Assembly (NCBI RefSeq): GCF_022549785.1
Contig: NZ_JAKZGO010000015.1
Coordinates: 1-64,000 of the forward strand
Length of the DNA: 64,000 bases
Source: Belliella alkalica
GTDB lineage: Bacteria > Bacteroidota > Bacteroidia > Cytophagales > Cyclobacteriaceae
Direction of reading: 5' to 3'
The position numbers and the translations under genes are program-made. Below are positions 42,825 through 60,121 of the stretch, piece after piece; position 1 is the stretch's first letter, and each line of letters starts with the position of its first letter. The notes under the pieces were generated by a model. It had not been told where the DNA came from. It searched no databases and saw only the letters and a program-made list of their open reading frames with translations.

Positions 42825-44873
42825 ATGTTAATTATGAGGTGTTTCGTAAAGCTATTGGTTGAGTTTTTATTTTTGATACTTGCGTTGGTTTCAACCTCAG
42901 CCATTGCAATGGCGCAAACTCCTCTAATTGATAGTTTGCAGCATATTATTTCTCAAAACAAGAGAGATACACTTCATGCCAAAGCTTTGTTTAATATGGG
43001 TGCGACTCTGGAGAGATCTGATATCAAGCGCTCTATAACTACTTACAAGAAACTTTTTGAATTGGGAGGTAATCCTACGATTGAGAAATACAAAGCTTTG
43101 GCATCAATAAGGTTAGGAGGTAATTATTCTGCGACAGGAGAATTGGATAGTGTAGCTTTTTATTTCGGATTGGCAAAAAGGTTTCTGGAAACAAATCCTG
43201 AGGATCAAATGACTGCTTATACCTATTATAATGGTCTGGGGATTCATTTTGGGAGAATAAGTGAATACCCAGAAGCATTGGAAAACTATAGAAATGCGCT
43301 AAATCTTGACCATAATGTAATAGGACAGAATAATGTGGCTGGACTGTTTTTGAACCTAGCCAAAGTTTATGGGCAGTTGGATGATGGAAAGTCAAAAATC
43401 GATGCTATTTACAAAGCTTTGGAGATTTTTGAAAAAACCCAGAATCAGACGGGTTTGGCATTTGTTTACAATGCCTTGGGGACAGTTTATTATGACTTGA
43501 AAAATTATGATGAATCGGAGATTAATTTATTAAAATCATTGGGATACAGAAAATCTCTGGGTGATAAAAGAGGAGAGTCATTAGTCATTGGTAATATTGC
43601 GAATATCTATATGGATCGAGGGGAGCATCAATTGGCAAAGGAATATTTTACCCTTGCAATGGAAATCCAGGAAAGTCTCGGCCTCAAAGAAATGGTGGGA
43701 ATACAACAGATCAACTTGGGCAAGAATTACGAGAAAATGGGTGAGTATCCACTCGCGTTGCAGCACTTTCAGCAAGCACAAAAGACCTTGGCAGAAGCAG
43801 GAATCAAAAACCATGACGCTATCATTCTTGCAGATATGGGGAATGTTCAGCGGCTTTTGGCTCAACAAAAAGAAGCCTATCAAAACCTTTTGGCTGCCAC
43901 AAAATCCGCGACCGAACAAAAAAATCACAGCAATTCTATAGTTGCCTACAAGAATCTTAAAGAGTATTACCAAGAACAGGGAAGGTTTGAAGAAGCCCTG
44001 GAAGCACAGTCAAAAGAATATGCCTATAGAGACTCTGTAGGAATGGGAGGATTACAAACCCAACTCAAAGAACTCGAATCTAGGTATGCTTTGGATTTGA
44101 AAGAAAATGAAATTGGCCTGCTAAAAGCAGAAAAAGAGCTTAGTAACTTAGAGCTGGAAAGGAGAAAAGTCAATCAACAGCTGATCTTGTCCGTCTCTAT
44201 TTTTCTGATTTTAATTGCAGGGATTTTGGTCAACAAATACAGGATTGTCGGTAAAGCAAATAGGCTTTTGGAAGTGGAAAGACTGAGGAATTCACTAGCA
44301 AGAGACTTGCATGATGACTTAGGTAGTGCACTTTCAAGTATCCATATCCTTTCCCAAATGGCTCTCCAAAAAGAAGTGCCTTCTACTAATCATCTATTTT
44401 CCAAAATCAATGCCCAAACAGCATCAATGATGGATAAGCTCAGTGATATCGTGTGGTCCATTCACCCAAACAATGACAATACAGATCAATTGCTAAGCAA
44501 AATGCAGGAATTTGCAGGAGAGATCCTTGAGCCAAAAGGAATCAACTATAGCTTTGAAATAGTTGAAGGAGCGATGGATATTAAACTGGACTTGGAGAAA
44601 AGAAGAAACATCTTTTTGATATTTAAAGAAGCAGTCAACAATGTTGCAAAATATGCAGATGGAAAACATCTAAAAATCAAGTTGGAGGTAGAGAATGGGG
44701 CTTTGGAATTGTTGATCAAGGATGACGGAAAAGGTTTTGATATGAATTCGATCAAAAAAGGGAACGGTTTATTCAATATGCACCAAAGGGCCGAGATGAT
44801 GGGGGGTGATATGGTAATTGAAAGTTTTCCCCATACGGGAACTTCCATTCAGCTGAGAACACCTATCACATGA
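42825..44873 (+). CDS. TPR-repeat sensor histidine kinase of the NarL partner type
   Basis: The protein has 682 residues. A signal peptide or first helix (to ~30) is followed by about seven tetratricopeptide repeats (~40-390), a coiled coil, a membrane helix (LILSVSIFLILIAGILVNKY), and a HisKA_3 module. Its phospho-acceptor His is in LARDLHDDLGSALSSIHIL, the N-box in FKEAVNNVAKYADGK and the G-box in DDGKGFD. The periplasmic TPR segment is probably the sensor. The partner LuxR-type regulator follows 204 bp later, behind its own motif-bearing promoter. Confidence 0.92.
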   Translation: MLIMRCFVKLLVEFLFLILALVSTSAIAMAQTPLIDSLQHIISQNKRDTLHAKALFNMGATLERSDIKRSITTYKKLFELGGNPTIEKYKALASIRLGGNYSATGELDSVAFYFGLAKRFLETNPEDQMTAYTYYNGLGIHFGRISEYPEALENYRNALNLDHNVIGQNNVAGLFLNLAKVYGQLDDGKSKIDAIYKALEIFEKTQNQTGLAFVYNALGTVYYDLKNYDESEINLLKSLGYRKSLGDKRGESLVIGNIANIYMDRGEHQLAKEYFTLAMEIQESLGLKEMVGIQQINLGKNYEKMGEYPLALQHFQQAQKTLAEAGIKNHDAIILADMGNVQRLLAQQKEAYQNLLAATKSATEQKNHSNSIVAYKNLKEYYQEQGRFEEALEAQSKEYAYRDSVGMGGLQTQLKELESRYALDLKENEIGLLKAEKELSNLELERRKVNQQLILSVSIFLILIAGILVNKYRIVGKANRLLEVERLRNSLARDLHDDLGSALSSIHILSQMALQKEVPSTNHLFSKINAQTASMMDKLSDIVWSIHPNNDNTDQLLSKMQEFAGEILEPKGINYSFEIVEGAMDIKLDLEKRRNIFLIFKEAVNNVAKYADGKHLKIKLEVENGALELLIKDDGKGFDMNSIKKGNGLFNMHQRAEMMGGDMVIESFPHTGTSIQLRTPIT

Positions 44874-44881
44874 TTCCTCTC

Positions 44882-44930
44882 TATCACATGATTGTGGTAT
44901 TTATAGTTATTAAAATAAGTCGGATCTTTA
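44882..44930 (+). promoter_or_regulatory. Motif site and -7 element before the response-regulator gene
   Basis: TATCACATGATTGTGGTATT plus T lies at 44882-44902. GATCTTTA, a -7-like element, starts at 44923, 21 bp after the last motif base. A half copy (TATCACATGATT) also lies at 44864-44875, overlapping the kinase stop. It suggests that the regulator controls its own gene. Evidence is the shared motif and spacing. Confidence 0.6.
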
Positions 44931-45077
44931 ATGCCTATTATTGATATTAATGAATGTTTTTTGATATTAAATAGATGTTTTGCTGAGGATGAGGATCATG
45001 ATCAGTGATAATATCTATGAATATCCAGTATCTACAAATATCTCTTTTGCAAAACAAAAACCAATCTGAGAAAAGTA

Positions 45078-45704
45078 ATGATCAAAGTGCTCCTATACGA
45101 AGACAATGAGCTCCTCCGTGAAAGCATCAGCAGTATGGTGTCGTTGAATGGAGAATTAGAGCTTTTGGGGACTTTTCCACATGCCAACGATTTGGAAGAT
45201 CAATTGAAAATTTTTCAGCCTGAATTGATTCTAATGGATATAGAAATGCCAGGGAGGAATGGAATTGAAGCTACTAAAATCATCAAAAAACTTGCTCCAT
45301 CGACCCTGATATTGATTTTGACGGTATTTGATGATTCTGAAAATGTGCTAAATGCCATCAAAGCCGGTGCTTCAGGGTACTTGTTGAAAAAGCACATAGC
45401 AGCTAAGATTTTTTTGGCAGTAGAGGAAATTCTGGAAGGTGGTGCCCCTATGTCTCCAGCTGTAGCAAAGCTGGTGGTTCAATCCATGCAAAAAGCCGGT
45501 AACGCTCAAAACTACGGACTCACTGAACGGGAGAAAGATGTTTTACTGTCACTTAGTAAAGGAAACAGTTTTAAGTTGATCGCAGCTGAATGTAAAATCA
45601 GTATCGATACGGTTAGGACCCACATCAAGCATATTTACGAAAAGCTTCAGGTACATTGCCAAACAGAGGCAGTTTCTAAGGCTATTAATGAAGGGTTGGT
45701 TTAA
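45078..45704 (+). CDS. NarL/LuxR-type response regulator
   Basis: The protein has 208 residues. The receiver occupies ~1-118, with the phosphorylation Asp in LILMDIEMPGRNGIE near residue 53 and Lys in YLLKKHIAA. The LuxR helix-turn-helix at ~145-205 reads LTEREKDVLLSLSKGNSFKL and SIDTVRTHIKHIYEKL. It pairs with the TPR kinase upstream and is the leading candidate to bind the 21-bp motif found in its own promoter and before five other genes or remnants. Confidence 0.93.
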   Translation: MIKVLLYEDNELLRESISSMVSLNGELELLGTFPHANDLEDQLKIFQPELILMDIEMPGRNGIEATKIIKKLAPSTLILILTVFDDSENVLNAIKAGASGYLLKKHIAAKIFLAVEEILEGGAPMSPAVAKLVVQSMQKAGNAQNYGLTEREKDVLLSLSKGNSFKLIAAECKISIDTVRTHIKHIYEKLQVHCQTEAVSKAINEGLV

Positions 45705-46041
45705 AGACTTTTGAGGTCTTTTTTGACCTCGACGGTTTTATCGGGAAACACAAAATGCTAAAGGTTGATTCTTGGTAAATAAGACCTTCGGGGTTTTGGA
45801 AACCCCAAAGGTCGGGTACTGCAAACCTTTGAAGTCTTTTTGTGACCTCGAAGTTTGAAGAGTAGCAGGCGTTTGAGATTGATTAAAAAAAGATATGAGT
45901 AAATACGATTAGATAACTTGTCCCGAGTATCGGGATTAGGATATTGGTTGAGACCTGTCAGGTCTAATCCCATGATTAGGGTATTGTGAAAGATTTTTGA
46001 AAGCTGTAACTTGTGTAAGTGATTGAAAATAAAGTGTTAAG
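45705..46041. repeat. Spacer with three hairpins and a motif site
   Basis: GAGGTC/GACCTC (45713-45730) around six T is a weak terminator candidate. A 14-bp near-perfect stem GACCTTCGGGGTTT with its complement (45783-45813, 3-nt loop, one mismatch) resembles the abundant GACCTTCGGGGTTT-type intergenic hairpins of this lineage. TCCCGAGTATCGGGA lies at 45921-45935 and AGACCT/AGGTCT at 45951-45965. The promoter motif follows at 45966. No gene was seen. Confidence 0.65.
45966..46014 (+). promoter_or_regulatory. Motif site and -7 element before the cytochrome gene
   Basis: The motif copy ATCCCATGATTAGGGTATTG ends at 45986. TAACTTGT (46007-46014) is a -7-like element 21 bp after it. The cytochrome start is 28 bp further. 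The right half ATTAGGGTATTG is exact. Confidence 0.6.
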
Positions 46042-47592
46042 ATGAAAATCAAAGAATGGCTTTCTAGACTCCCCTTGTGGCTTTATGGCTGCATGCTGCT
46101 ACCTCTACTCGCTTTTGGGTTGAGCAAACAAGTTGTTTCCTATTTTTCTTTTTCAGATATCCCCCGCATCTGGACGGATGAAGCCATGAAGGATTGGGAG
46201 CTGCCCAATTCAAATCCGGAATATTCAGCACAGCCAGTATCGGAGGAGTTTTATTATAATCTCCCTGAAAGGGTCATCTATAAGACTTATCCTGTCTACC
46301 ATCCTGACCATGAACCGGAAGGGTATTGGGAATGGTTGCATGAACTAGAGGCAGAGATTGTATTGGATGAAAGTAAATTGCTGACAGAGGAGGATTATAT
46401 CAAGGCAGGAGAACTACTTTTTGATTATCCAATTGACACTTTGGGTGCAGTGATCAGTACAAAGCATGTCCGCAATATTGATTTTTATACTGCTACAGAA
46501 ATGCCCTTGACTCCTGAGGGTATCATGCCATTTGCCCAGTGGGTAGTAGCTGGAAAGGGGAAGGTTTACCTTGGCAATCTCTCTTGTGCCATGTGCCATA
46601 CCCGCGTGATGGATGATGGTTCACTACTCAAAGGTGCGCAGGGAAACTGGCCTGGTGACAAGGCTTTTGCTTTTGCCTTGGAAACTGACGGTGCTTCTGA
46701 AAGGGCTATACAAAATATCACCAGTTTTTTGTTTGCAAGTCCTTTTGCCGAAGGTGACCCCCATGGCAAACTCTTGGCCACTGGAAAAGAAGCCATCCTG
46801 GAAGCTTATAGGGCTGTCCCAGAAGGCGCATTTGGTAGGCAAGGAACCAGTATCCTCTTTCCTCCCCAGGCGCCAAACCTGATAGGGGTCAAGGACAGGA
46901 AGTACTTGGATCACGGAGGCCTAGGACAGCACAGGAATATCGAGGACATGATGCGGTATATTTCCATGAACCAGGCTTTGGATTTCCTAAATTTCTATGG
47001 TGATTACAATCCAATTGGTTTGACCAAAGAAAGGCTCAATAGCGGAGAACCTATTTTTTTTCCAGGTACTTATGACCGGCACTCAGATGCCCAGCTATAT
47101 GCTTTAGCCAAATATATTTATTCACTCAGTCCACCTGAAAACCCGAATAAACCATCTGAATTGAGCGAAAGTGGTAAAATCATTTTTGCCGAGCAAGGTT
47201 GTGTAACCTGCCATACCCCACCGCTTTTTACCAACAATAAACTGACTCCCACGGATGGGTTTGAGGTGCCTGATGCACATTATGACAAGTATGATATCTT
47301 CGGTATTTCTGTGGGTACAGATCCGGGATACACCATGAAGACCAGAAGAGGGACGGGTTATTACAAAGTACCTTCTTTATTGGGTTTATGGTACAGGGGA
47401 CCATTCCTGCATGATGCTTCCTTAGCCAATTTGGAGGACTTGTTTGATCCGGCAAGATTGAAAGATGATTATGTACCTACAGCCTTCAAGCCCCATGATG
47501 TGAAGACCAAGGCGGTCAAGGGACATGAATTTGGGATGGAGTTGAATGAAATGGACAAGAAGGCGTTGATTGCTTATTTGTTGACGCTTTAA
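46042..47592 (+). CDS. Membrane-anchored di-haem c-type cytochrome
   Basis: The protein has 516 residues. An N-terminal membrane helix (LPLWLYGCMLLPLLAFGL) is followed by two haem c sites, CAMCH at residues 182-186 and CVTCH at 387-391. The pattern is that of di-haem cytochrome c peroxidase/MauG-like proteins, with VPSLLGLWYRGPFLHDASLANLEDLFDP in the second half. It would act in the periplasm as an electron carrier or peroxidase. It is followed by a YceI-like gene and preceded by the promoter motif. Confidence 0.85.
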   Translation: MKIKEWLSRLPLWLYGCMLLPLLAFGLSKQVVSYFSFSDIPRIWTDEAMKDWELPNSNPEYSAQPVSEEFYYNLPERVIYKTYPVYHPDHEPEGYWEWLHELEAEIVLDESKLLTEEDYIKAGELLFDYPIDTLGAVISTKHVRNIDFYTATEMPLTPEGIMPFAQWVVAGKGKVYLGNLSCAMCHTRVMDDGSLLKGAQGNWPGDKAFAFALETDGASERAIQNITSFLFASPFAEGDPHGKLLATGKEAILEAYRAVPEGAFGRQGTSILFPPQAPNLIGVKDRKYLDHGGLGQHRNIEDMMRYISMNQALDFLNFYGDYNPIGLTKERLNSGEPIFFPGTYDRHSDAQLYALAKYIYSLSPPENPNKPSELSESGKIIFAEQGCVTCHTPPLFTNNKLTPTDGFEVPDAHYDKYDIFGISVGTDPGYTMKTRRGTGYYKVPSLLGLWYRGPFLHDASLANLEDLFDPARLKDDYVPTAFKPHDVKTKAVKGHEFGMELNEMDKKALIAYLLTL

Positions 47593-47604
47593 ACATTGAT
47601 ATTG

Positions 47605-48231
47605 ATGGATATTGGATATTTAGATATTGTTGTAGCCCCGTGGGGATCGTTACGTAAATGTTGCGTTCGTCGCGAGAACTTTAATTACTTAAGTGGGAAA
47701 ATTGACTTTAGAAGTCGTTTGTTAATATTAACGCTAATATTCTTTTTGATAGTGCCGTTTCTACTTTCTGCACAATCTTTCAAGCCAGAAAATCCCATCC
47801 AATTCAAAATCAAAAACGCAGGGATTACTGTGGATGGATTGATCTCAGACTGGGAAGTAATGGTTGATTTTGATCCAAAGAAGTTGACTCAATCGAGTAT
47901 TCGAGGAAAAGCAAACCCAGAGAGTATCCAAACTGGAATCAAGTTAAGGGACAAGCACCTACATGGACGAGAGTATTTTCATATCGAAAAATTTCCTTTC
48001 ATCAGTTTGGAATCAAAGTCTTTTCGGTCTAAAGGGAAAAATGCTTTTATTGGGATTTTTGAGTTGCAGATCAGGGGTGTGAAAAGAGAACTTGAAATCC
48101 CATTTACTTTGTCCCAAACAGGAAAACAGCAGATGTTTAAAGGTGAGTTCACAATTGATCGCTTGGATTATGGGTTAGGTGAAAAGAGTCTGGTGCTTTC
48201 GGATGAAGTGAGGGTGGTGGTGGAATTTTAG
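47605..48231 (+). CDS. Exported YceI-like lipid-binding protein
   Basis: The protein has 208 residues from the ATG at 47605. The signal peptide is RLLILTLIFFLIVPFLLSAQ, so a TTG at 47719 that starts just before it is equally likely. The first ~40 residues would then be untranslated leader. The mature domain is YceI-like, a beta-barrel for isoprenoid or quinone-type ligands: FKIKNAGITVDGLISDW, KLRDKHLHGREYFHIEKFP, and GIFELQIRGVKRELEIPF. It lies directly after the cytochrome gene, a common pairing for periplasmic electron transfer. Confidence 0.75.
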   Translation: MDIGYLDIVVAPWGSLRKCCVRRENFNYLSGKIDFRSRLLILTLIFFLIVPFLLSAQSFKPENPIQFKIKNAGITVDGLISDWEVMVDFDPKKLTQSSIRGKANPESIQTGIKLRDKHLHGREYFHIEKFPFISLESKSFRSKGKNAFIGIFELQIRGVKRELEIPFTLSQTGKQQMFKGEFTIDRLDYGLGEKSLVLSDEVRVVVEF

Positions 48232-48387
48232 AATTTAGATTTAAGAATTTAGATTTTAGATTCACGCACCCAGCATTTTTTAGGTAGACGCTGTCCCGAA
48301 CATAGGGAGGACACGGAGAATAAAAAGAATAGAATTCCATTGCTCCTGCCACGATCATCTCTTGGCTCGCTGCGTGAAATAATATTC

Positions 48388-48631
48388 TCAAGCAGTAGAA
48401 TCCTCGATTGGAATGATTTTATCCAGTTCATTTATTTTTTGGTATTGTTCTTCCTCAAGATCATAATCATTCTGTAACCTTAGCCAAAACTCGGGGCTTG
48501 TTACTATGAACTTGCTCAATCGTTTGAGGAATAAAAGTCTCCTTGGCCAATCTGTAAGCAGAAATTTCTAGTGGAATTAGAAACTCTTCTATTAAAATCT
48601 CTCCTTGATGCATATTTTTAAGCCTATTCAT
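48388..48631 (-). pseudogene. Broken HigA-family antitoxin
   Basis: From an ATG at 48631 the frame reads MNRLKNMHQGEILIEEF and ISAYRLAKETFIPQT, the usual N-terminus of HigA-type XRE antitoxins. The next codons should be the rest of the helix-turn-helix, but about 27 codons are missing and the frame shifts. The expected C-terminus, SPEFWLRLQNDYDLEEEQY, is present in another frame and ends at 48388-48390. No HigB toxin gene is adjacent. This is the remnant of a lost toxin-antitoxin locus. Confidence 0.75.
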
Positions 48632-48684
48632 TTTTTTATTACTAACAAAATTCATCAATTATACTCAGTATAAAAAATCCGGTA

Positions 48685-48746
48685 TATCACATGATCGGGG
48701 TATTTTTGATGCTTTTTATTTGACTAGTTTTAGGGAAATAAATTTG
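48685..48746 (+). promoter_or_regulatory. Motif site and promoter elements before the gluzincin-like gene
   Basis: TATCACATGATCGGGGTATT plus T lies at 48685-48705. TAGTTTTA (48725-48732) lies 20 bp after it. A second, canonical-looking pair, TTTG (48719) and TAAATTTG (48739-48746), lies slightly downstream. The start codon is at 48780. The motif thus covers the region upstream of or over the -33 box. Confidence 0.6.
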
Positions 48747-48779
48747 AGTTAACCCTTTAACTTTGAACCTTTTAAATAC

Positions 48780-49676
48780 TTGATGATGAAAATAAAGTTT
48801 TTGATACTTTATGTGTTTTTGCTGGGATTTTACACCTTTAGCAAAGCCCAAGATAAACCTTTACTCGTGGAATGGAGTATTGGCGAAACGGCTGTTTTTT
48901 ACAGCCAGGATCAGGAAGTTTCTGCCCAGTTTTCAGGTGAAATCTGTTATGAAGCCAACAGTTTTTTCAAAAGAACCTTAGAGGACTTGGAAGTTGAATT
49001 CAAGATCTATGTGCTTTCTAAGGAGGATTGGTCACATTACACTGACCCAAATTTGATTTATGGAATGCCTCACTTTATTCCTAACGAAAAAAGATTAGTA
49101 GTTGCGGCAGAGGATAATACATTTTGGAGGATGCAGCTTCCTGACTTTTCTTCATTATCCTCACCTTACAAGGAGCTTTTTCCAATGACTTATAGTCTAA
49201 ATGATGAAGTAAGTAGCAGGTACTTTTTTGATTTATTGCCTGTCCACGAACTCGGGCATGCATGGGCTTCTAAAGCAGGTCTTAATACCCAAAGAAACTG
49301 GCTTTCAGAAATACTGTGCAACCTGATGCTACATACTTTTATTGCGGAAGAAAGAGGTGAATTCCTTGGGGCTTTAGAACTTTTACCCATGTATTGGTCC
49401 AAAGAAGACCAATCCAATTATACCTTCAGATCCCTTGAACAGTTTCAAGACAATTATTGGGAAATAGGAACGCAGTCCCCTCGGAATTATGCCTGGTATC
49501 AGTACAGGTTTCATGATGCTGCTAGGAAGCTTTATAATGAAGGTGGGGCAGATGTGTTGATCAATCTTTGGTTGTTTCTTTTGAATAACCAAGAGACTTT
49601 GGACGATGATGCATTGTTGTCCGGATTACGTGATGATGTGCATCCTTTTTTTGAAGAATTATGGAGTGAATGGTAA
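48780..49676 (+). CDS. Exported gluzincin-like metalloprotease
   Basis: The protein has 298 residues. A signal peptide ends near TFSKAQDK. The zinc-binding motif HELGHAWASKAG lies near residue 157-168, and the Glu in NWLSEILCNLM, 20-odd residues later, fits the third ligand of gluzincins. The rest is unfamiliar and has many aromatic residues. It probably cleaves peptides outside the cytoplasm. It shares the motif-bearing promoter and the direction with the dipeptidase gene 87 bp downstream. Confidence 0.7.
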   Translation: MMMKIKFLILYVFLLGFYTFSKAQDKPLLVEWSIGETAVFYSQDQEVSAQFSGEICYEANSFFKRTLEDLEVEFKIYVLSKEDWSHYTDPNLIYGMPHFIPNEKRLVVAAEDNTFWRMQLPDFSSLSSPYKELFPMTYSLNDEVSSRYFFDLLPVHELGHAWASKAGLNTQRNWLSEILCNLMLHTFIAEERGEFLGALELLPMYWSKEDQSNYTFRSLEQFQDNYWEIGTQSPRNYAWYQYRFHDAARKLYNEGGADVLINLWLFLLNNQETLDDDALLSGLRDDVHPFFEELWSEW

Positions 49677-49763
49677 TAGCTTTCTAGAGATAATGATTCT
49701 TTTAGAAAACTTTATCAATGAATTATGAAATTGGCAATTGCCTTAATAAAAACTATTGGTTTT

Positions 49764-51038
49764 ATGAACTTTGAGCAAGTTAAAATTTATAGGTTGATTT
49801 TAATCTTTTTGATTTCCTGCACTAGCCATGTAGAGCTAAGTCATGAAGATTTGGTTGCCAAAGTACTGAGGGAAGCTCCGCTGATTGATGGACACAATGA
49901 TTTATTGATCCATTATTTCTGGTGTAAAGCATGTCCGAGAGAGTTGGATGACTATAAATTAGATACCATTTCGGATGGCCATATTGATATTGCCCGACTT
50001 CGTAAAGGAGGTGTGGGGGCACTGCTGACCAATATTTTTGGTAGAGGGAAGGAGATGAATGAATATCTGCAAGGTTGGGACTTGATCTATAGAATAGAGG
50101 AGAAGTATGCTGATGATTTCAAAGTAACAGTTACTTCTTCTGAAGTCAGGCAGGTGATGAAAAGTGGCAAGATTGCCATCATTCCATCCATGGAGCATAC
50201 CTATGAATTGGTGGATGATCTGGGGAGATTGAGGACATTATACCGATTGGGTTTACGCTCTGTGATTTTGGCTTATAACAACAATAACATTGCGGATGGG
50301 GCTTTCGATGAACCCATTCATGATGGTCTGAGCGATTATGGGAAAGAGTTGGTATTGGAAATGAACCGCCTTGGTATCATGATCGACCTTTCCCATATTA
50401 CAGAAAAAGGAATGCTGGATGTACTGGAAATCACGAGGGCTCCTGTCATATTCAGCCATGCCAATGCAAGAGCCCTTACCGATACCGAAAGAAATGCCTC
50501 AGATCAGGTACTTTTGAAATTGAAGGAAAACGGAGGATTGATTATGTTGACTCCTGTCAACTATTTTACCACTCAAGAAGCCCATGATTATTTTTTGGTG
50601 AAGCTTGATAGCATGGGTAAGGCCTTTCAAGAAAAATACCCTAATCCTGACCAGATGTCTGACGAAGAAATTGAATTTGCTGATGCTGAATGGGATGCTT
50701 GGGAAGCAGCCAATCCACATCCTAAAGTAACGGTCAAGGATTTTGTTGATCATTTTGATTATGTGAAAAATTTGATCGGTGTAGATCATTTAGGTATTGG
50801 AAGTGATTTTGATGGCATGAGTTACTTGATTGAGGGGATAGAGGATGCAAGTACATTTCCGAATATCCTTTTGGAGTTGGCCAATAGAGGTTGGACAGAA
50901 AAGGAGCTGAAAAAGGTGACCCAAGAGAATTTTTTAAGGGTCTTTGAAGCAGTGGAACAAAAGTCCGCTGAAATACAGAAAATTGAAGGGCCTAGAATTG
51001 CTAAAGTGACATCTGAAAAAATGCAAAGGGTACCTTAA
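49764..51038 (+). CDS. Lipoprotein dipeptidase (renal dipeptidase type, M19)
   Basis: The protein has 424 residues from the ATG at 49764, which gives a lipoprotein signal with lipobox LISC. An ATG at 49725 would add 13 residues. The M19 fold has all metal ligands: HNDLL (HxD), the bridging Glu in IIPSMEHTY, and the His residues in DLSHITEKG and FSHANARAL; GIGSDFDGM closes the site. It hydrolyses dipeptides, often with D-residues at the second position. It follows the gluzincin-like gene. Confidence 0.9.
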   Translation: MNFEQVKIYRLILIFLISCTSHVELSHEDLVAKVLREAPLIDGHNDLLIHYFWCKACPRELDDYKLDTISDGHIDIARLRKGGVGALLTNIFGRGKEMNEYLQGWDLIYRIEEKYADDFKVTVTSSEVRQVMKSGKIAIIPSMEHTYELVDDLGRLRTLYRLGLRSVILAYNNNNIADGAFDEPIHDGLSDYGKELVLEMNRLGIMIDLSHITEKGMLDVLEITRAPVIFSHANARALTDTERNASDQVLLKLKENGGLIMLTPVNYFTTQEAHDYFLVKLDSMGKAFQEKYPNPDQMSDEEIEFADAEWDAWEAANPHPKVTVKDFVDHFDYVKNLIGVDHLGIGSDFDGMSYLIEGIEDASTFPNILLELANRGWTEKELKKVTQENFLRVFEAVEQKSAEIQKIEGPRIAKVTSEKMQRVP

Positions 51039-51055
51039 ATTACGGATTAAATTAA

Positions 51056-52618: not shown

Positions 52619-52771
52619 GGGAAAAAAGGTTAAGTTATATCAATCATTAGGGATATTAAGTACTGCTCTGGAAATGATGGTTTCAATACTTATATTTTTC
52701 CGACTTTAAAATAATAAATATTTCGATAAATAACTGAAAAATTTCAAGAATTAATCTGATGGTGTAATTCA

Positions 52772-52792
52772 CCTCACATCATTAGGGTATTG
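52772..52792 (+). promoter_or_regulatory. Orphan copy of the promoter motif before the deiminase remnant
   Basis: CTCACATCATTAGGGTATTG with a following G is almost identical to the copy before the intact agmatine deiminase gene (56164), and the match continues through GTAG. No -7 element lies 20-21 bp downstream because the remnant's coding DNA starts 9 bp after the motif. Confidence 0.6.
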
Positions 52793-52800
52793 GTAGCTAA

Positions 52801-53013
52801 ATGAATTTTTTGGTTACAAATGGCGTAGTGGTGACATCTTCCTATGCCAGAGATGAAGCTTTTGTCAAGCGGGAAAAGGAAGTAGAAGCATTATTCAAAC
52901 AAGCATTTCCCGGACGTGAAATCGTCTTTGTTGATGCCATGCAGATGAATTGGCAGGGTGGAGGCATTCATTGTAGTACACAACAGGAACCCAAAAGGAG
53001 AGGGGTGAAGTAA
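52801..53013 (+). pseudogene. C-terminal remnant of an agmatine deiminase-family gene
   Basis: The 70-residue frame matches the end of the intact protein at 56337-57626: NFLVTNGVVVTSSYA corresponds to NFLISNDKVLLPTYL, and the catalytic-Cys motif GGGIHCSTQQEP to GGGIHCYTKQVP. Nothing of the first ~360 residues remains; the promoter motif lies 9 bp upstream. The best reading is an internal deletion fusing a promoter region to a gene end. It differs clearly in sequence from the intact copy, so it derives from an older paralogue. Confidence 0.8.
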
Positions 53014-53029
53014 AGCAGGGCTTACATCA

Positions 53030-53110
53030 TGCTTTCTTGAAAAACTATTTTATAAAAATGCTTTTTGTAAAAACTATTTTGTAAATTTGCTTTATATAAA
53101 AACTATTTTA
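53030..53110 (+). promoter_or_regulatory. Three 29-bp iterated repeats upstream of the ATPase gene
   Basis: AAAAACTATTTT occurs at 53040, 53069 and 53098, exactly 29 bp apart, each preceded by a TGCTTTnnTn block. The third copy runs into the ATG at 53110. Such an array over the start codon fits cooperative repression. The core TTGCTTTATATAAAAA is shared with repeats before the decayed paralogue at 10.7 kb. Confidence 0.7.
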
Positions 53111-54291
53111 TGGAAGTGCTGATCAAAAAGTCTGAAAGGAAAGCAAAGTCTGTCAAGGAAAAGCAAAAGAGGTATTTGTACCATCAAATTGATTGGACCC
53201 AAAGTTTGATTTTGATCTTGGGTTACCGAGGTTCAGGGAAAACCACCCTTTTACTGCAATATTTGTCAACTTCCGATAAGAAAGGCATTTACCTTAGCCT
53301 TGATGATTTTTATTTCGAAACGCATAGATTGGTAGCGTTTGTGAATGAACTCTATGAATTAGGATATCGGCTATTTCTTTTGGATGAAGTCCATAGGTAT
53401 GCATTTTGGTCAAAAGATCTCAAACAGCTATACGATGATTATGATGATATTCAAGTCATTGCGACAGGATTCTCTATCCTTGATATTTCCAGAGGTAATG
53501 CTGATCTTTCAAGAAGGGCATCTGTTTATCATTTACATGGTCTTTCTTTTAGAGAGTATCTGAATTTTCAGTACCGAACAGATCTTTCAAGCTTTACTTT
53601 GGATGATATTTTGACCAAGCACCATGCTCTGGCTCCTGAACTGTTGGATAATATACCTGTCCAGTCCTATTTTCAGGATTATTTGAAATTTGGTTATTTC
53701 CCTTTCTTTCTGGAATCCAAAATCGGGTATTCACAAAAACTTCAGGAGACAATCCAACTGGTGATTGATACGGATATTGCTCCTTTTGAAGAGTTGCAGC
53801 ACAGTACAGTTCGGACTTTAAAAAAGCTACTAGTTGTCCTAAGTGAAAGTGTTCCGTTTACACCCAATATCAACAAGTTGGCAGAAAAATTAGAAACTCC
53901 TCGAAATACTATATTGAGATTGTTGGACATTTTGGATCAGGCCCAAATCCTTAAGCTGCTTAGGTCTGCTACAAAAGGAATCAGCTATCTTCAGAAGCCC
54001 GATAAAATATACCTTCAAAACCCCAACTTTATTCATCTCTTTTCGCCAACTATGGCCAATGTGGGAAATGTCCGTGAAACTTTTTTTATTAATCAACTGA
54101 GTGCAGTTCATAAAGTGACAAGTCCAAAATATGGGGACTTCATGGTGGATGATGCTTATGTATTTGAGGTAGGGGGAGGCAGCAAAACCACCGACCAGAT
54201 CCAAGGGGTCCCCAACGCTTACCTTGCCCTTGACATCGAAAGTGGAAATGGCAAAAGAATCCCTTTATGGCTATTTGGAATGCTGTACTGA
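53110..54291 (+). CDS. AAA_14/DUF4143-type ATPase
   Basis: The protein has 393 residues. Walker A GYRGSGKT lies at residues 38-45 and Walker B LFLLDE at 88-93, followed by VHRYAFWSKDLKQLYDDY. The C-terminal domain has a winged-helix part (~240-300: NINKLAEKLETPRNTILRLLDIL) and ends with the family-typical SPKYGDFMVDDAYVFEVGG and IPLWLFGMLY. The family is widespread and multicopy in Bacteroidota and archaea; its role is unknown. The winged helix could bind the upstream repeats. A broken paralogue lies at 10.4 kb. Confidence 0.88.
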   Translation: MEVLIKKSERKAKSVKEKQKRYLYHQIDWTQSLILILGYRGSGKTTLLLQYLSTSDKKGIYLSLDDFYFETHRLVAFVNELYELGYRLFLLDEVHRYAFWSKDLKQLYDDYDDIQVIATGFSILDISRGNADLSRRASVYHLHGLSFREYLNFQYRTDLSSFTLDDILTKHHALAPELLDNIPVQSYFQDYLKFGYFPFFLESKIGYSQKLQETIQLVIDTDIAPFEELQHSTVRTLKKLLVVLSESVPFTPNINKLAEKLETPRNTILRLLDILDQAQILKLLRSATKGISYLQKPDKIYLQNPNFIHLFSPTMANVGNVRETFFINQLSAVHKVTSPKYGDFMVDDAYVFEVGGGSKTTDQIQGVPNAYLALDIESGNGKRIPLWLFGMLY

Positions 54292-54340
54292 TTGTGAGTT
54301 GTAAACAGACGTTCAGTAGAAGGTTTTTATATGAATGTTT

Positions 54341-54388
54341 TGAATGAAAAATCATTCATTGAAACCAATTTCATACATTAATGAATGA
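54341..54388 (+). promoter_or_regulatory. Two palindromic operators upstream of hipB
   Basis: TGAATGA and TCATTCA (54341-54347 and 54352-54358) form a perfect 7-bp palindrome with a 4-bp centre. TCATACAT and ATGAATGA (54371-54378, 54381-54388) form a second of the same sequence family with one mismatch. A third copy overlaps the hipB start codon. They are the likely HipB binding sites. Confidence 0.65.
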
Positions 54389-54475
54389 TATTTCACTCAA
54401 ATTGTTTTTATTGATTCGAATAAAATTTATATATTTGTATGAAAAATAAGTCATAATAGCTAGATTAATATTATA

Positions 54476-54495
54476 ATGAATGACTTTTCATACAT
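54476..54495 (+). promoter_or_regulatory. Palindromic operator over the hipB start codon
   Basis: ATGAATGA (54476-54483), whose first three bases are the hipB start codon, is followed after CTTT by TCATACAT (54488-54495). This has the same half-site type as the two upstream palindromes, so HipB may block its own translation start region. Confidence 0.6.
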
Positions 54496-54820
54496 ATCAT
54501 ATATAAGTGATGGAGCGCTTCTCAAAAAAATAGGTGGCTTTGTCAAATCCCGTAGGATTGAGCAAAACCTCACGCAAGACGAGGTGGCAGAGCGGGCTGC
54601 GATCAGTCGGTCTACGCTTAGTTTACTGGAAAGGGGAGAGAATATTGCCCTGACCAATCTATTGAAAGTTTTGCGGGTATTGGATGCACTGTATGTGTTG
54701 GAGCATTTTCAAGAGGTTAAGCCTATAAGTCCTATGCAGCTCGCCAAAGAAGACGAAGTGAAATGGAAAAGGGCTTCCAAAAGCAAAAAGTCTTCACCTA
54801 AAGATGATCTGGGATGGTAA
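54476..54820 (+). CDS. hipB: HipB-type antitoxin with XRE helix-turn-helix
   Basis: The protein has 114 residues. An XRE helix-turn-helix lies at ~20-75: KSRRIEQNLTQDEVAERAAI and SRSTLSLLERGENIALTNLL. A lysine-rich tail (~95-114) may contact HipA. HipB represses the operon and neutralises HipA. Its stop lies 7 bp into the hipA frame. Three palindromes upstream are candidate operators. Confidence 0.85.
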   Translation: MNDFSYISYISDGALLKKIGGFVKSRRIEQNLTQDEVAERAAISRSTLSLLERGENIALTNLLKVLRVLDALYVLEHFQEVKPISPMQLAKEDEVKWKRASKSKKSSPKDDLGW

Positions 54821-56100
54821 GGACGGCATTTGTCAAGCTCTGGGGTCAGCGCATAGGTGCGGTGGTATGGGATGAAAGTCAGGAGTTGGCTTTTTTCGAA
54901 TACGACCGAAGGTTTGCCTCAGGGAAACTGGATATCTCCCCTGTTCGGATGCCGCTGGGAACTCGCATTTACAGCTTCCCGGAATTGAGGAGAAATGCAA
55001 CATTCAAAGGTCTTCCTGGCTTGTTGGCGGATTCCTTACCTGATCGCTATGGGAATGAATTGATTAATGGCTGGCTTGCCCGCAATGGTAGGCCAGAAAA
55101 CTCCCTGAATCCTGTAGAATTACTTTGTTTCATCGGAAATAGAGGCTTGGGTGCTTTGGAGTTTGAGCCTTCTACGCTGCCGGCTCAAGAGCAAGGGCAA
55201 TTATTGGAGCTATCGAGTCTGATCGAAACTACCAAAAAGTTGTTGGAGAGCAGGGAGCAATTTGAAATGCACACAGACCAAGGTATGCGAGATGTCATGC
55301 TGAATGTATTGAAGATGGGAACTTCAGCAGGAGGGGCAAGACCAAAAGCCATCATTGCATACAATGAATCCACAGGGATGATCCGCTCAGGACAGACTTT
55401 GCAGGAGACTGGATTTGAACACTGGCTGATCAAGTTTGACGGGGTCAATGACACGCAGTTTGGAGAGACATTTGGTTATGGACGAGTGGAGATGGCCTAC
55501 TATGCCATGGCGATAGATGCGGGTATTGAAATGGCTCAAAGCAGGTTGATTGAAGAAGAAGGCAGGGCACATTTTATGACCAAGCGCTTTGACAGGGTGA
55601 ATGGAACGGATAAGCTTCACATGCAGACTTTTTGTGCTTTGCAGCATTTTGATTTTAACAATGTCAGTAGCTACAGCTATGAACAGCTGTTTCAGACCAT
55701 GCGCCAACTGCGGCTTACCTATGCCGAGGCAGAGCAATTGTTCCGAAGGATGGTATTCAATGTACTGGCCCGTAACTGTGATGATCATACCAAAAACTTT
55801 GCTTTTCTGATGGATCAGGAAGGTAAATGGAGCCTTTCTCCTGCTTACGATATCTGCCATGCTTACAGACCGGATAGTGTATGGGTCAGTCAGCATTGCC
55901 TGAGCATCAATGGTAAAAGGAAAGATTTTGTGCTGGACGATTTTTTAACGATTGCCAAGCAAAACTCTATTCGAAATCCTCAAGGCATTATCCAGGAAGT
56001 ACAGGAGATTGTTTCCAATTGGATGGACTATGCTGGAAAGTATAAAGTGAATTCAAAGCTTGCTGAAGCTATTGCCACTACTTTGGTTAAGATGGTGTAG
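54814..56100 (+). CDS. hipA: HipA-type serine/threonine kinase toxin
   Basis: The protein has 428 residues, normal for HipA. The glycine-rich loop GTSAGGARPKAI lies near residue 170. The catalytic loop is RNCDDHTKNFAF near residue 315 (NxxDDHxKN type), followed by the metal site in SPAYDICHA. HipA kinases phosphorylate glutamyl-tRNA synthetase or related targets and induce dormancy. It overlaps hipB by 7 bp. The catalytic residues are intact, so the toxin appears functional. Confidence 0.93.
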   Translation: MVRTAFVKLWGQRIGAVVWDESQELAFFEYDRRFASGKLDISPVRMPLGTRIYSFPELRRNATFKGLPGLLADSLPDRYGNELINGWLARNGRPENSLNPVELLCFIGNRGLGALEFEPSTLPAQEQGQLLELSSLIETTKKLLESREQFEMHTDQGMRDVMLNVLKMGTSAGGARPKAIIAYNESTGMIRSGQTLQETGFEHWLIKFDGVNDTQFGETFGYGRVEMAYYAMAIDAGIEMAQSRLIEEEGRAHFMTKRFDRVNGTDKLHMQTFCALQHFDFNNVSSYSYEQLFQTMRQLRLTYAEAEQLFRRMVFNVLARNCDDHTKNFAFLMDQEGKWSLSPAYDICHAYRPDSVWVSQHCLSINGKRKDFVLDDFLTIAKQNSIRNPQGIIQEVQEIVSNWMDYAGKYKVNSKLAEAIATTLVKMV

Positions 56101-56163
56101 CTGTTGTTTTTTTTAATCAGGTGTGTCACTTAATGGAGTTTTTTGACTTTTTAAATGGATAGC

Positions 56164-56212
56164 TATCACATCATTAGGGTATTGGTAGTGTTCTGAATTT
56201 CATGGAATTTTA
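56164..56212 (+). promoter_or_regulatory. Motif site and -7 element before the agmatine deiminase gene
   Basis: TATCACATCATTAGGGTATT plus G lies at 56164-56184, and GAATTTTA (56205-56212) is the -7-like element 21 bp after it. This is the best copy of the motif in the window. The start codon is 124 bp further, beyond a repeat element. Confidence 0.65.
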
Positions 56213-56221
56213 AGGGTGATA

Positions 56222-56320
56222 TTTCACGCGGCGACCGCAACGATAAAACGCAAACCTTGTCCCGGATCTCGGTAGAGCGCAACGGGAGAGATTTAAAATC
56301 GCCGCGTTCGCTGCGTGAAA
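56222..56320. repeat. 99-bp palindrome-ended repeat element in the leader of the deiminase gene
   Basis: TTTCACGC (56222-56229) and GCGTGAAA (56313-56320) are exact inverted ends. The complementarity continues inwards as GCGAnCGC. The interior carries CTTGTCCCGGATCTCGG, akin to the hairpins in the his spacers and at 45.9 kb. The end CGCTGCGTGAAA also occurs at 48368-48379. It lies between the -7 element and the ATG, so it would form most of the mRNA leader. Confidence 0.55.
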
Positions 56321-56336
56321 CAAAAATCCTCAAATC

Positions 56337-57626
56337 ATGAAAAACCTAACATTATTTGTCTTTTTGATAGTTGTAATTTCTTCCTGCAAGAAAGAGCAAA
56401 GGGATCCTGCACTATTTTACTATCCGGCTGAATGGGAACCACAGGAAGCTATGTTAATGGGTTGGACGGAAAGGCAACCGGAGTTTTTTCCATTGGTTGT
56501 CGATTTGGCACGCGCACTTGAAGGTTCTACATCTGTCATTTTTGTATCAGATACCAGTGAAAATCCTGTGGTTTTCAAAGAATACCTATTGGAAAATGGC
56601 TTAGATACTGCAGCATATACTTTTATATCTTTACCCGTATGGCAAGCTGTGGCACTAAGAGACGTTGGCCCGGTGTATCTGGTCAATGGGCTGGGGGACA
56701 CAAAAGCAGTGGACTATAGCTGGTCATTTCAGGATTTTTTCGAACGGTTTTTAATCGAGAAAGGTGTGGATCCGGACACAGCTAAGGCCGATGCTTCATT
56801 TTTCAACAGAAATCAAAAAACGGACAGTTTGATAGCTGCAAGAGAGGGACTAGAGGTGCTTGTCTCTCCTTTGAATTTAGATGGTGGTGCAATAGAGGTG
56901 AATGGGAAAGGAAGTATTTTGTTGAATGAGGATTGGATGTTTAAGGTTAATCCGGAATTGTCCAAACTCAGCATTGAAGAGGAACTCAAGCGTACTTTAG
57001 GGGTCCATCATTTTATTTGGGTAGGAAAAGGTTTGGTCGAAGATAGTGATCCAACGGAATTCATTGTTCCTGGATATGTTGCCATTGGTACCGCCGGTCA
57101 TACCGATGAATATATCCGATTTGCCAATGCGAATACCATTTTGCTGGCTTGGGTGGATGAAGAAGAAAAAGATGTACATCCTGTTCATGCTGAAAACTAC
57201 CGAAGGCTACAGGAAACGTATGATATTTTGGTCAAAGCAAAAGATCAGGATGGAAAACCATTCAAGATCATCAAAGTTCCTTTACCGGATCTGCGGTACA
57301 GGTCTAATATTGTTGTAGAGGGCTGGGCAATAAGTGATTCGACTATTGGGAACAAGTATTTTCTCCCCCACCAAAAGGTGGCATTAGGAGATACCCTGCA
57401 ATACCTTTCTGCTTCCTCTTACCTCAATTTTTTGATTTCCAATGATAAGGTGCTCTTGCCAACTTATTTGGCAGTTGATAGCTCTGCTGAAAAAGAAGAA
57501 CACGTCAAAGAGATTTTTTCAAGCTTATACCCTGATAAACAATTGGTCTGGATAGATGCTACAGTTTATAATTGGGGAGGTGGAGGAATACATTGCTATA
57601 CCAAACAGGTACCTAAAGCTAATTGA
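56337..57626 (+). CDS. Lipoprotein agmatine deiminase / peptidylarginine deiminase family
   Basis: The protein has 429 residues. A lipobox VISSC near residue 17 anchors it. The PAD_porph fold has the marks NLDGGAIEVNGKG near 180, GHTDEYIRFA near 260, and the catalytic Cys in GGGGIHCYTKQVP near 422. It hydrolyses guanidino groups of agmatine or peptide-bound arginine, releasing ammonia. As a lipoprotein it acts outside the cytoplasm. It has a motif-bearing promoter and precedes a peptidase gene by 48 bp. Confidence 0.88.
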   Translation: MKNLTLFVFLIVVISSCKKEQRDPALFYYPAEWEPQEAMLMGWTERQPEFFPLVVDLARALEGSTSVIFVSDTSENPVVFKEYLLENGLDTAAYTFISLPVWQAVALRDVGPVYLVNGLGDTKAVDYSWSFQDFFERFLIEKGVDPDTAKADASFFNRNQKTDSLIAAREGLEVLVSPLNLDGGAIEVNGKGSILLNEDWMFKVNPELSKLSIEEELKRTLGVHHFIWVGKGLVEDSDPTEFIVPGYVAIGTAGHTDEYIRFANANTILLAWVDEEEKDVHPVHAENYRRLQETYDILVKAKDQDGKPFKIIKVPLPDLRYRSNIVVEGWAISDSTIGNKYFLPHQKVALGDTLQYLSASSYLNFLISNDKVLLPTYLAVDSSAEKEEHVKEIFSSLYPDKQLVWIDATVYNWGGGGIHCYTKQVPKAN

Positions 57627-57674
57627 GAATCAAAGTTTTTAATGAATTGATAAAAACCATAAAATATTAATAAA

Positions 57675-59771
57675 ATGAACACAAAATTTACATTTCTTAT
57701 TTTTGGGCTATTGCTAATCATAAAACCTTCACTCGCTCAAAACCCCTTACTTGAAACCTTCAACACCCCTCACGGGATCATTCCTTTGGAAAAGGTTGAG
57801 GCGGAGCATATTTTACCTGCCTTTAATGTTGCCTTGGAAGAAGACAGGAAGCAGGTACAGGCCATTATTGATAACTCAGAGACCGCAACATTCAACAATA
57901 CCATCGCCGCATATGCGAAGATTGGGAGAAATACAGGCATGATATCAGGCTATGCAAATGCAATGGCTGCTGTCAATGGCAATCCCGAGATATATCAGAC
58001 GGTAGGCATGGTCAGCCACCTAAGCAGCGCCTTTTCTAATGAATTGCTTTTCAATGAAAAACTTTTCGAGAGGGTAAAGGAGGTTTATCTACAAAAGGAA
58101 AGCTTGTCATTGACTTCGGAGGAATTGACCCTGTTGGAGAACTATTACCTCTGGTTTGCCCGTAATGGCAATGATCTTTCAGGTAAGGATAAAGAGCGTC
58201 TGAAAGAGGTCAGGGGCCGCCTGAGTGAATTGAGCACTATCTTTGGTCAGAATGCTATACAGGACAGGGACCGCACATTTTTCCACCTTACACAGGAAGA
58301 AGACCTGGCCGGATTGCCCGAAAGGATAATTGCTTCAGCTGCAGAATATGCGAAGAGTAAAAATACTGATGGATGGGCTTTCCCAATTTCAGGCCCTTCA
58401 ACAGGAGACTTCATGAGGTACGCAGATAACAGAACATCAAGAGAAAAGCTTTTGAAGTTATCGTGGCAAATCGGAAACAACCCCAATGAATTCAATAATC
58501 TTGAAATTGCCAAAGAGCTATTGAACCTTCGTCTTGAAATGGCCCAACTGCTAGGTTACAACTCTTTTGCCGAATATGAGCTTGAAGAAAGAATGGCAGA
58601 AACGCCAGAGCAAGTAATGACTTTTCTTGACACATTCAAGGACAAGGTAAAACCCATAGCAGAAAAGGAAATAGAAAATCTGCATGCATTTGCCATTTCT
58701 CAAGGCTTTGATGATGTGATCCGACATTGGGATTTTGCTTATTTCAACAGGAAATACAGGGAGGGGATTTTTGAATTTAACACCGACGAGGTTAAGCCTT
58801 GGTTGCCTGTGGGACATGCCATCGAGGAAACTTTTTCTATGGTATCTGAAATGTGGGGGCTGGAGTTCAGGGAAAACCAAAGCTTGCCAAAAATGCATCC
58901 CCAAATGCTTCCATACGAGGTGTTTGACGCAAACGGTGACGTAAAAGCGGTATTATATCTTGACCTTTATGAGAGAGCAGGAAAAGTAGGTGGAGCATTT
59001 GCCGGGGCAATCCGTGCACAAAATAAAGAAAGCGGGCAAAATGAAATTCCTTTGATAGGCCTTGTGTGTAACTTTAGAAATCCTTCCATAGATAATGAGG
59101 CATTTTTGAGCTTAGGTGAACTCAGTACTTTTCTGCATGAATTGGGACATGCCTTGCATTATATATTGTCAGATGTAACCTATAGAAACCTATCTGGTAC
59201 AAACTTAAAGTACAGTGATTTTGTAGAGGTTCCTTCCATGTTGCTGGAAAAGTGGGCTTATGAACCGGATTTTCTGGCAAGGGTGGGCAGGCATTACCAA
59301 ACAGGTGAAGCGCTCCCACAAGAAATGATTGATAAAATCATACGCAATGAAAAGGAAGGCAGGGCACTTTCAGAAATGCGGTTAACTATTGCTGATGCTG
59401 CCCTCGATATTGCCCTTCACGATATGAATATGCCTTTTGAAGGTGATCTTTGCGGTTGGGAAAGGGACTTTACCCAAAACTATTCCTTGTTTCCTTCGGT
59501 AGAAGACGCATGCTATATCCCATCATTTCGTCACATATTTTCCAATGGGTATGCTTCCGGTTATTACACCTATACTTGGTCAGACATGATGTCTTGGGAT
59601 ATTTTCAATGAGTTTAGAAAGAATGGCATTTTCGATCCAGCCATAGCCAAAAGACTGGAAAAGGAGATATTGTCGAAAGGCGGTACTGTTCATCCAAGGG
59701 AGTTATTCAAAAACTTTATGGGTAGGGATATGAATATAAATGCATTTTTGGAGAGTTTTGATGATCAATAG
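57675..59771 (+). CDS. M3 family metallopeptidase (Dcp/oligopeptidase A-like)
   Basis: The protein has 698 residues. A signal peptide ends near PSLAQNP, so the enzyme is exported. The zinc motif FLHELGHALHYIL lies near residue 485, and the third ligand Glu is in YSDFVEVPSMLLEKW about 30 residues later. The full N-terminal helical half and a C-terminal YTWSDMMSWDIF motif match peptidyl-dipeptidases. It removes dipeptides from peptide C-termini. It is cotranscribed with the agmatine deiminase gene. Confidence 0.93.
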   Translation: MNTKFTFLIFGLLLIIKPSLAQNPLLETFNTPHGIIPLEKVEAEHILPAFNVALEEDRKQVQAIIDNSETATFNNTIAAYAKIGRNTGMISGYANAMAAVNGNPEIYQTVGMVSHLSSAFSNELLFNEKLFERVKEVYLQKESLSLTSEELTLLENYYLWFARNGNDLSGKDKERLKEVRGRLSELSTIFGQNAIQDRDRTFFHLTQEEDLAGLPERIIASAAEYAKSKNTDGWAFPISGPSTGDFMRYADNRTSREKLLKLSWQIGNNPNEFNNLEIAKELLNLRLEMAQLLGYNSFAEYELEERMAETPEQVMTFLDTFKDKVKPIAEKEIENLHAFAISQGFDDVIRHWDFAYFNRKYREGIFEFNTDEVKPWLPVGHAIEETFSMVSEMWGLEFRENQSLPKMHPQMLPYEVFDANGDVKAVLYLDLYERAGKVGGAFAGAIRAQNKESGQNEIPLIGLVCNFRNPSIDNEAFLSLGELSTFLHELGHALHYILSDVTYRNLSGTNLKYSDFVEVPSMLLEKWAYEPDFLARVGRHYQTGEALPQEMIDKIIRNEKEGRALSEMRLTIADAALDIALHDMNMPFEGDLCGWERDFTQNYSLFPSVEDACYIPSFRHIFSNGYASGYYTYTWSDMMSWDIFNEFRKNGIFDPAIAKRLEKEILSKGGTVHPRELFKNFMGRDMNINAFLESFDDQ

Positions 59772-59782
59772 AATAGGTTTAT

Positions 59783-59935
59783 ATGAAATACCTAAACTCC
59801 CGCTTTTACTTGATTATCACCATCCTGCTTCTGCTATTGGTGTTGTTAGGCTTTGGTCCTAGGTTTTATCTGCGACCTTTTTTCGATCAGCCAAGGCATT
59901 TGCAAATGGCGCAATTGCCTATCTATTTGATATGA
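59783..59935 (+). pseudogene. Truncated N-terminus of a small membrane protein gene
   Basis: A 50-codon frame starts 11 bp after the M3 peptidase stop: MKYLNSRFYLIITILLLLL continues with VLLGFGPRFYLRPFFDQP and stops just after LPIYLI. This resembles the first helix and loop of multi-pass membrane proteins of the phylum, whose next helix would follow LPIYLI. The rest is missing, so it is read as a decayed gene. It could alternatively be a genuine single-helix protein. Confidence 0.45.
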
Positions 59936-60072
59936 AAAAGCTAAATAAAGACTGTAAAAATAAGTAGAATCAAAAGCACTGCATTCAGGTAAATCCTGTT
60001 TTTTCAATTTTGAAGGCTGGAGTTGAGTAGTTAAACATAGTCAGTTTTTTCAAGATATCAAAACTATTTTTT

Positions 60073-60121
60073 TATCACATCATTATGGTATTTCTCTCTA
60101 TTTCAATGAGATGTATCTTTG
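60073..60121 (+). promoter_or_regulatory. Motif site and -7 element before the serine hydrolase gene
   Basis: TATCACATCATTATGGTATT plus T lies at 60073-60093, and TATCTTTG (60114-60121), a perfect TAnnTTTG, starts 21 bp after it. The start codon lies 144 bp further. The surrounding 59936-60264 stretch (329 bp) holds nothing else recognisable. Confidence 0.65.

Follow-up and report, generated by a model that had tools for sequence, protein, structure and literature searches.

We analysed a 64,000-nucleotide stretch of the Belliella alkalica genome (contig NZ_JAKZGO010000015.1, positions 1 to 64,000; called the window below), in which a 20-bp motif recurs beside the genes of a sensor histidine kinase and a NarL/FixJ-type response regulator (RR). 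Our results suggested that the motif is the operator of this RR, through which the RR would activate its own gene and a neighbouring island of hydrolase and redox genes as a class II activator. We give this reading a probability of roughly 0.8. The regulatory genes and the motif copies are as follows.

42825 to 44873, plus strand: sensor histidine kinase with tetratricopeptide repeats (TPR), HisKA_3 and HATPase domains and one membrane segment (about 449-476)
44864 to 44875, plus strand: part copy of the motif, 12 bp (TATCACATGATT), overlapping the kinase stop, 18 bp 5' of copy 1
44882 to 44901, plus strand: motif copy 1, -7 box at 44923, putative autoregulatory site of the RR gene
45078 to 45704, plus strand: NarL/FixJ-type RR with a receiver and a GerE/LuxR helix-turn-helix (HTH) domain, proposed to bind the motif
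45966 to 45985, plus strand: motif copy 2, -7 box TAACTTGT at 46007, preceding the c-type cytochrome gene
48685 to 48704, plus strand: motif copy 3, -7 box TAGTTTTA at 48725
52772 to 52791, plus strand: motif copy 4, a relic without a -7 box
56164 to 56183, plus strand: motif copy 5, the exact consensus, -7 box GAATTTTA at 56205
60073 to 60092, plus strand: motif copy 6, -7 box TATCTTTG at 60114

All six copies of the original prediction were recovered at their stated coordinates by a sequence search of the window, every one on the plus strand, and they differ from TATCACATSATTAGGGTATT by 0-2 mismatches. Dinucleotide shuffles gave an expectation of 0.02 copies against the 6 found, and 0 of 100 shuffles reached six. 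The copies are intergenic relative to the listed open reading frames (ORFs), as had been claimed, and copy 1 starts 9 bases beyond the kinase stop at 44873. When the whole 4.95-Mb genome was searched at up to 3 mismatches, 6 forward and 0 reverse matches were obtained, all of them these six; the reversed pattern gave 0 forward and 1 reverse match in the same search. The idea of a new regulon was well supported as that of a class II activator, but at the threshold searched it occupies one 15-kb island rather than the genome, and one of its six copies is a relic.

This relic, at 52772, stands before a truncated deiminase gene:

52801 to 53013, plus strand: deiminase remnant of 70 codons, C-terminal, 38% over 65 amino acids to the PAD_porph protein at 56337-57626

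Its promoter has lost the -7 region and the gene most of its length, and 52772 is therefore the lone copy without a box. By eye, 52638-52657 (TATCAATCATTAGGGATATT) is a possible further decayed operator copy, with one base lost and one gained.

The RR matched PF00072 (8.7e-20) and PF00196 (1.5e-15), which places it among the NarL/FixJ regulators. Its residues D54, T82 and K104 are present and near-invariant across 61 aligned rows, its recognition helix is S175-IDTVRTHIK-184, and, among proteins of solved structure, VraR, DesR and NarL are nearest to it in sequence. The kinase at 42825-44873, which has an N-terminal hydrophobic segment that is probably a signal peptide, is the partner of this RR. 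In the proposed mechanism the TPR kinase would sense a cue, probably periplasmic, and phosphorylate the RR. An RR dimer would then bind the motif as a 20-bp imperfect dyad (T3, C6, T8, A10 | T11, A/G13, G15, A18) centred at about -42. Its downstream arm would abut -33, so that the RR could touch the primary sigma factor at promoters whose only recognisable element is a TAnnTTTG -7 box. In this clade the RR would turn on its own gene and the island genes, each with its own operator copy.

The register between motif and promoter enters this proposal. The five -7 elements lie exactly where the original prediction placed them, 20-21 bp past the motif. In loci compared across 16 genomes (88 sites at 20 bits or more), 83 of the 88 had the A..TT of a TAnnTTTG-type box 20-21 bases past the motif; of four-offset windows elsewhere, 268 of 2640 had it (10%). 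Three of the five exceptions share one context, namely 52772 and its counterparts in genomes G007 and G125. No site (0/88) lay on the opposite strand, and four lay inside ORFs that are probably spurious. TAnnTTTG is the primary sigma -7 consensus according to the available text of PMC7366714. If this box is centred at -7, the site would span about -52 to -33 with its centre near -42. The earlier placement in the -33 region therefore stands for the 3' edge, which abuts -33, but not for the site as a whole. The lux box of LuxR is a 20-bp inverted repeat centred at -42.5 (PMC3376562, part of the text). The motif resembles it in geometry, but its sequence is different; LuxR binds an acyl-homoserine lactone, whereas the RR has a receiver domain instead, so the motif is not a lux box. 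We infer class II activation from this span, from the lux-box geometry and from the TAnnTTTG at -7.

The same register bears on two other explanations. The motif could be the -33 element of an alternative sigma factor of the extracytoplasmic function (ECF) type, as the original prediction had allowed beside a class II activator, and the fixed orientation and distance to a second element would suit it. But that second element is of the ordinary primary-sigma type in those 83 of 88 sites (consensus as in the PMC7366714 excerpt), whereas both elements of an ECF promoter would differ from those of the primary sigma. The retained housekeeping-type TAnnTTTG and the probable imperfect dyad of the site leave a sigma factor unsupported; symmetric variants such as CATCGCATGATGATGCGATA are likewise unexpected for a sigma element, and none of the 20 locus proteins scanned with Pfam, a subset of the ORFs, is a sigma factor. 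We consider this explanation highly improbable. The RR could instead bind the motif as a repressor that blocks the sigma factor at -33 until the signal relieves it. The location beside -33 fits a steric block, and autoregulated regulators often repress, but the near-invariant spacing to the -7 box suggests that the RR replaces the -33 contact, and one would expect a repressor to function at more than one spacing. Repression is accordingly rated unlikely, and class II activation preferred.

Sites upstream of RR orthologs bear on autoregulation. Of 81 RRs, the best matches at 49-100% identity in 390 genomes of the family, 60 were examined over 450 bp upstream; 19 others were already covered, and those of G177 and G217 were left out. 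A matrix match above the 99% shuffle level (9.1 bits) was present in 53 of 60, five of which fall between 9.1 bits and the highest shuffle (14.8 bits). By eye, six of the other seven have a more symmetric variant of the CATCGCATGATGATGCGATA type at -71 to -74, and the seventh (L225) was also judged by eye to have a symmetric variant. Leaving L225 aside, 58 of 59 sites begin between -60 and -94, counted from the aligned start of the RR, and one begins at -142. In a set of 80 named loci, all seven RRs at 54-67% identity, including those of Chitinophagaceae and Mucilaginibacter, show a site at the corresponding position, each with p <= 0.0052 when compared with windows drawn at random from those loci. 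Four close RRs (L075, L076, L077 and L086) gave nothing within a 250-bp upstream scan; their sites are farther out, at about 340-430 bp.

The motif is probably a 20-bp imperfect dyad. The 59 self-sites all have C6, T8, A10, G15 and A18, and nearly all have T3, A7 and T19. Complementary pairs averaged 4.92 of 10, where shuffles gave 2.73 (standard deviation 0.18). Complementarity is almost constant at pairs 3/18, 6/15 and 10/11 and frequent at 2/19 and 8/13. The register to the -7 box played no part in picking these sites, and T was found at +26 in 59/59 and at +27 in 57/59. At least 7 complementary pairs are present in 9 of the 59, and the sites of four distant RRs are perfect 20-bp palindromes with the register unchanged, matched by 0 of 847 control regions. 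We take the dyad centre from these more symmetric relatives. A dyad-plus-box scan without half-site knowledge gave the maximum score to 4 of 79 RRs and 0 of 847 control upstream regions (one of the 80 RRs was excluded as too near a contig end). For the 67 RRs below 50% identity it gave a mean of 10.27 against 9.66 (p 0.004), a weak general signal. The RR relatives L112, L128 and L135, whose records are labelled Chryseobacterium, have palindromes of this perfect 20-bp kind (TATCCCTAAATTTAGGGATT, for example) that keep the -7 register.

The motif and the RR also occur together. In 59 genomes of relatives, the window's own included, a site with up to 2 mismatches was found in 8. An RR ortholog of at least 57% identity is present in 7 of these 8 and in no other genome of the set. 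The remaining one, G045, has one site and lacks an RR ortholog at that level; five other species of the genus have neither the motif at up to 2 mismatches nor an RR ortholog. G022, whose ortholog belongs to the 50-56% group, has a 3-mismatch site 5' of the RR. The matrix matches track gene starts and the regulator, not coding DNA, which favours the prediction on a point set beforehand as a test by which it could fail.

A search of the 390 family genomes at up to 1 mismatch of ATCMCATSATTRGGGTATT gave 126 matches in 60 genomes. The motif and an RR of at least 49% identity were present together in 46 of these 60 (Fisher p 3.5e-27, not corrected for relatedness). The RR shares the contig with 92 of the 126 matches, all 92 of which lie on the RR strand and within 25 kb, 38 of them at most 450 bp upstream of the RR. 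For 20 matches the RR is on another contig, 14 of these being in four drafts (G027, G078, G101 and G107) with at least 3 matches each; the remaining 14 matches are in genomes without the RR. All 15 genomes with two or more matches carry the RR, and in the multi-copy clade there are 3-8 matches per genome. In 24 of the 26 genomes whose RR contig has a single match, that match precedes the RR by 56-93 bp. In G178 and G245 the sole match is 6.8 and 9.2 kb past the RR, and their own RR-upstream site has more mismatches.

The single matches also bear on whether another island regulator, either an AraC-type protein (F11) or a HipB-like XRE protein (F7), binds the motif. These families are found in 9 and 11 locus pieces, respectively. 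However, the AraC gene was not found in the window locus and HipB not in the examined stretches of G031 and G035, while the RR is present in 16 of 16 compared genomes and, as said, the lone match on its contig usually sits upstream of it. Such a binder has very little likelihood in our estimate, and the RR remains the preferred one. The AraC-type gene (L067 6112-6942) adjoins the RR in 9 of 16 loci.

Several results weigh against the RR reading. G033 (RR at 50-56%) has only a weak 5-mismatch site, after the RR gene, and no site within 5 mismatches was found in the stretch examined of G008, whose RR ortholog is 50% identical. We inspected the 20 matches outside RR contigs and multi-site drafts (the 14 without an RR and the remaining 6). 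The -7 box is in phase in only 3 of them, which is close to the 10% background and makes chance the probable origin of most, and the family-wide reversed-pattern count of 0 therefore understates the background. Nineteen have no RR match in the 2.7-4 kb around them; the twentieth has one of 30%, on the opposite strand. Because the matrix served to pick the self-sites, part of their base conservation reflects selection, and a strict box test (A..TT, offset 19-22) was passed by only 43 of 59. Pairs 4/17, 5/16 and 9/12 are seldom complementary (0.14, 0.08 and 0.15). Symmetry among close orthologs is only moderate, because a scan of centres scored the proposed one at 0.49 and another, 4 bp upstream, at 0.47. 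One unlinked match, in the RR-bearing genome G166 (L247), stands 5' of a 448-amino-acid frame and may be a real second target.

The genes that follow the intact island copies in the window are listed here.

46042 to 47592, plus strand: c-type (di-heme-like) cytochrome, putative target, after copy 2
47596 to 48231: YceI-like gene, after the cytochrome gene
48780 to 49676, plus strand: HELGH (HExxH) protein, motif recognised by eye, probably exported, putative target, after copy 3
49725 to 51038: M19 dipeptidase, after the HExxH gene
56337 to 57626, plus strand: PAD_porph / agmatine-deiminase-like protein, putative target, after copy 5
57675 to 59771: peptidase M3, after the deiminase gene
60265 to 61494, plus strand: beta-lactamase-fold (PF00144) protein, putative target, after copy 6

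The first ORF of at least 90 amino acids after each of the 88 sites was tallied, with families named from one representative each. It was the RR in 16 cases, a PAD_porph deiminase-like protein in 16, a c-type cytochrome in 12, the HExxH protein in 9, an unassigned family of about 170 amino acids in 8 and an amidohydrolase with a TPR tail in 8. The operator is kept while the target set varies among species, and peptide or amide hydrolysis would be the common theme. The HExxH protein had no match in Pfam or NCBIfam, and its family has two copies in the G007 and G125 loci; the protein at 60265-61494 had no clustered homolog in the other compared loci. Within the island, 54476-56100 holds a HipB-like/HipA toxin-antitoxin-type pair (HipA PF13657/PF07804) without a motif of its own in the window; the HipB-like F7 is found in 11 and HipA (F4) in 15 locus pieces. 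An AAA_14 ATPase gene (53110-54291) follows the relic and has homologs in four other locus pieces. Between the RR stop and copy 2 (45700-45965) there are inverted-repeat-like fragments, gacctgtcaggtct and gaggtcttttttgacctc, and similar letters stand before the copy-2 counterpart in several relatives.

The receiver and GerE HTH architecture of the RR is that of known NarL/FixJ regulators (VraR, LiaR, NarL, DesR, DegU and RcsB), and HTH-domain dimers on DNA are described for RcsB, NarL and DosR (PMC5829831, PMC9263151, in the portions available). The present system differs from them in its operator sequence, its Bacteroidota -7-type promoter, its TPR kinase and its single-island targets. FimS/FimR of Porphyromonas gingivalis is likewise a Bacteroidota kinase with a response regulator. 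FimR binds its target promoter directly, its targets are fimbrial, and the accessible text of PMC1974823 gives no operator consensus. The window kinase matched NCBIfam HK_Porph_FimS (E 9.2e-23) with 80 bits, far under the cut-off of 600, and its assignment as FimS was rejected.

Related RRs offer a view of how the recognition helix may read the operator. Of 68 RRs below 50% identity, 62 were grouped by recognition-helix residues and 6 skipped. For RRs with Lys181/Glu184, ATACG ranked top of all 1024 five-base half-sites, occurring upstream of 13 of these 25 RRs and of 1 of the 37 remaining ones (p 6.8e-6; about 0.007 corrected for 1024 half-sites and 0.035 with five classes, the relatedness of the 25 loci being uncorrected). 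In these more distant RRs, ATACG...CGTAT palindromes (the 13 of 25) take the place of the motif. This unbiased test resolved no half-sites for the other RR classes, and ATCCC..GGGAT, ATTAC and similar palindromes of distant RRs were picked by eye. Among close orthologs Thr181 goes with ATCAC (37/38), Ala181 with ATTAC (7/10) and Ser181 with ATCGC or ATAAC-type arms (8/11). Five genomes (G289, G295, G315, G333 and G408) have two RR paralogs each, one ATCAC/Thr181 and one ATTAC/Ala181, with its own variant per paralog. Residue 181 ranked 1st of 143 columns for motif bases 4-5, but 4th, 6th and 4th for three other readings. ATCAC is retained in six Ala/Ser181 rows, and a tree built without the DNA-binding domain points to few independent changes of residue 181, two results that count against such a code. 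The covariation within orthologs is only suggestive, because the rank varies by reading and the independent changes are few. We take T181 to align with NarL V189 and RcsB S184, judging from a NarL match range of equal length, from the sequences of these proteins and from the contacts of NarL. RcsB S184 contacts a base (PMC5829831, part of the text).

We tentatively propose, with less than even confidence, that Bacteroidota NarL-type RRs with TPR kinases form a large family self-regulating through fixed-register 20-bp dyads. The central bases of each arm might be read by residues 181 and 184 (ATCAC with Thr, ATTAC with Ala, ATCGC with Ser, ATACG with Lys plus Glu), operators might thus be predictable, and one Cyclobacteriaceae clade might have multiplied its self-operator as hydrolase genes gathered. 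In the open-licence literature, a search for the motif letters gave no relevant paper (the sole match was on adipocytes), and no paper was found on autoregulated NarL-type regulators with TPR kinases in Bacteroidota; a literature search for NarL base-contact residues gave nothing useful. To our knowledge, operators of Bacteroidota NarL-type regulators have hardly been described, and the regulator, operator and island are new while the kind of system is known.

Here a regulator, its putative site, the promoter register and the putative targets were obtained together. The group concerned has culturable environmental members (Cecembia, Indibacter, Mongoliibacter and Mongoliitalea). The operator code is the part that could amount to more, since the system allows a test of whether a few recognition-helix residues predict operators for many related regulators. 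It also gives a view of a one-gene autoregulatory circuit turning into a multi-promoter regulon. If the tentative proposal above is true, this regulon has been caught while growing from an autoregulatory site.

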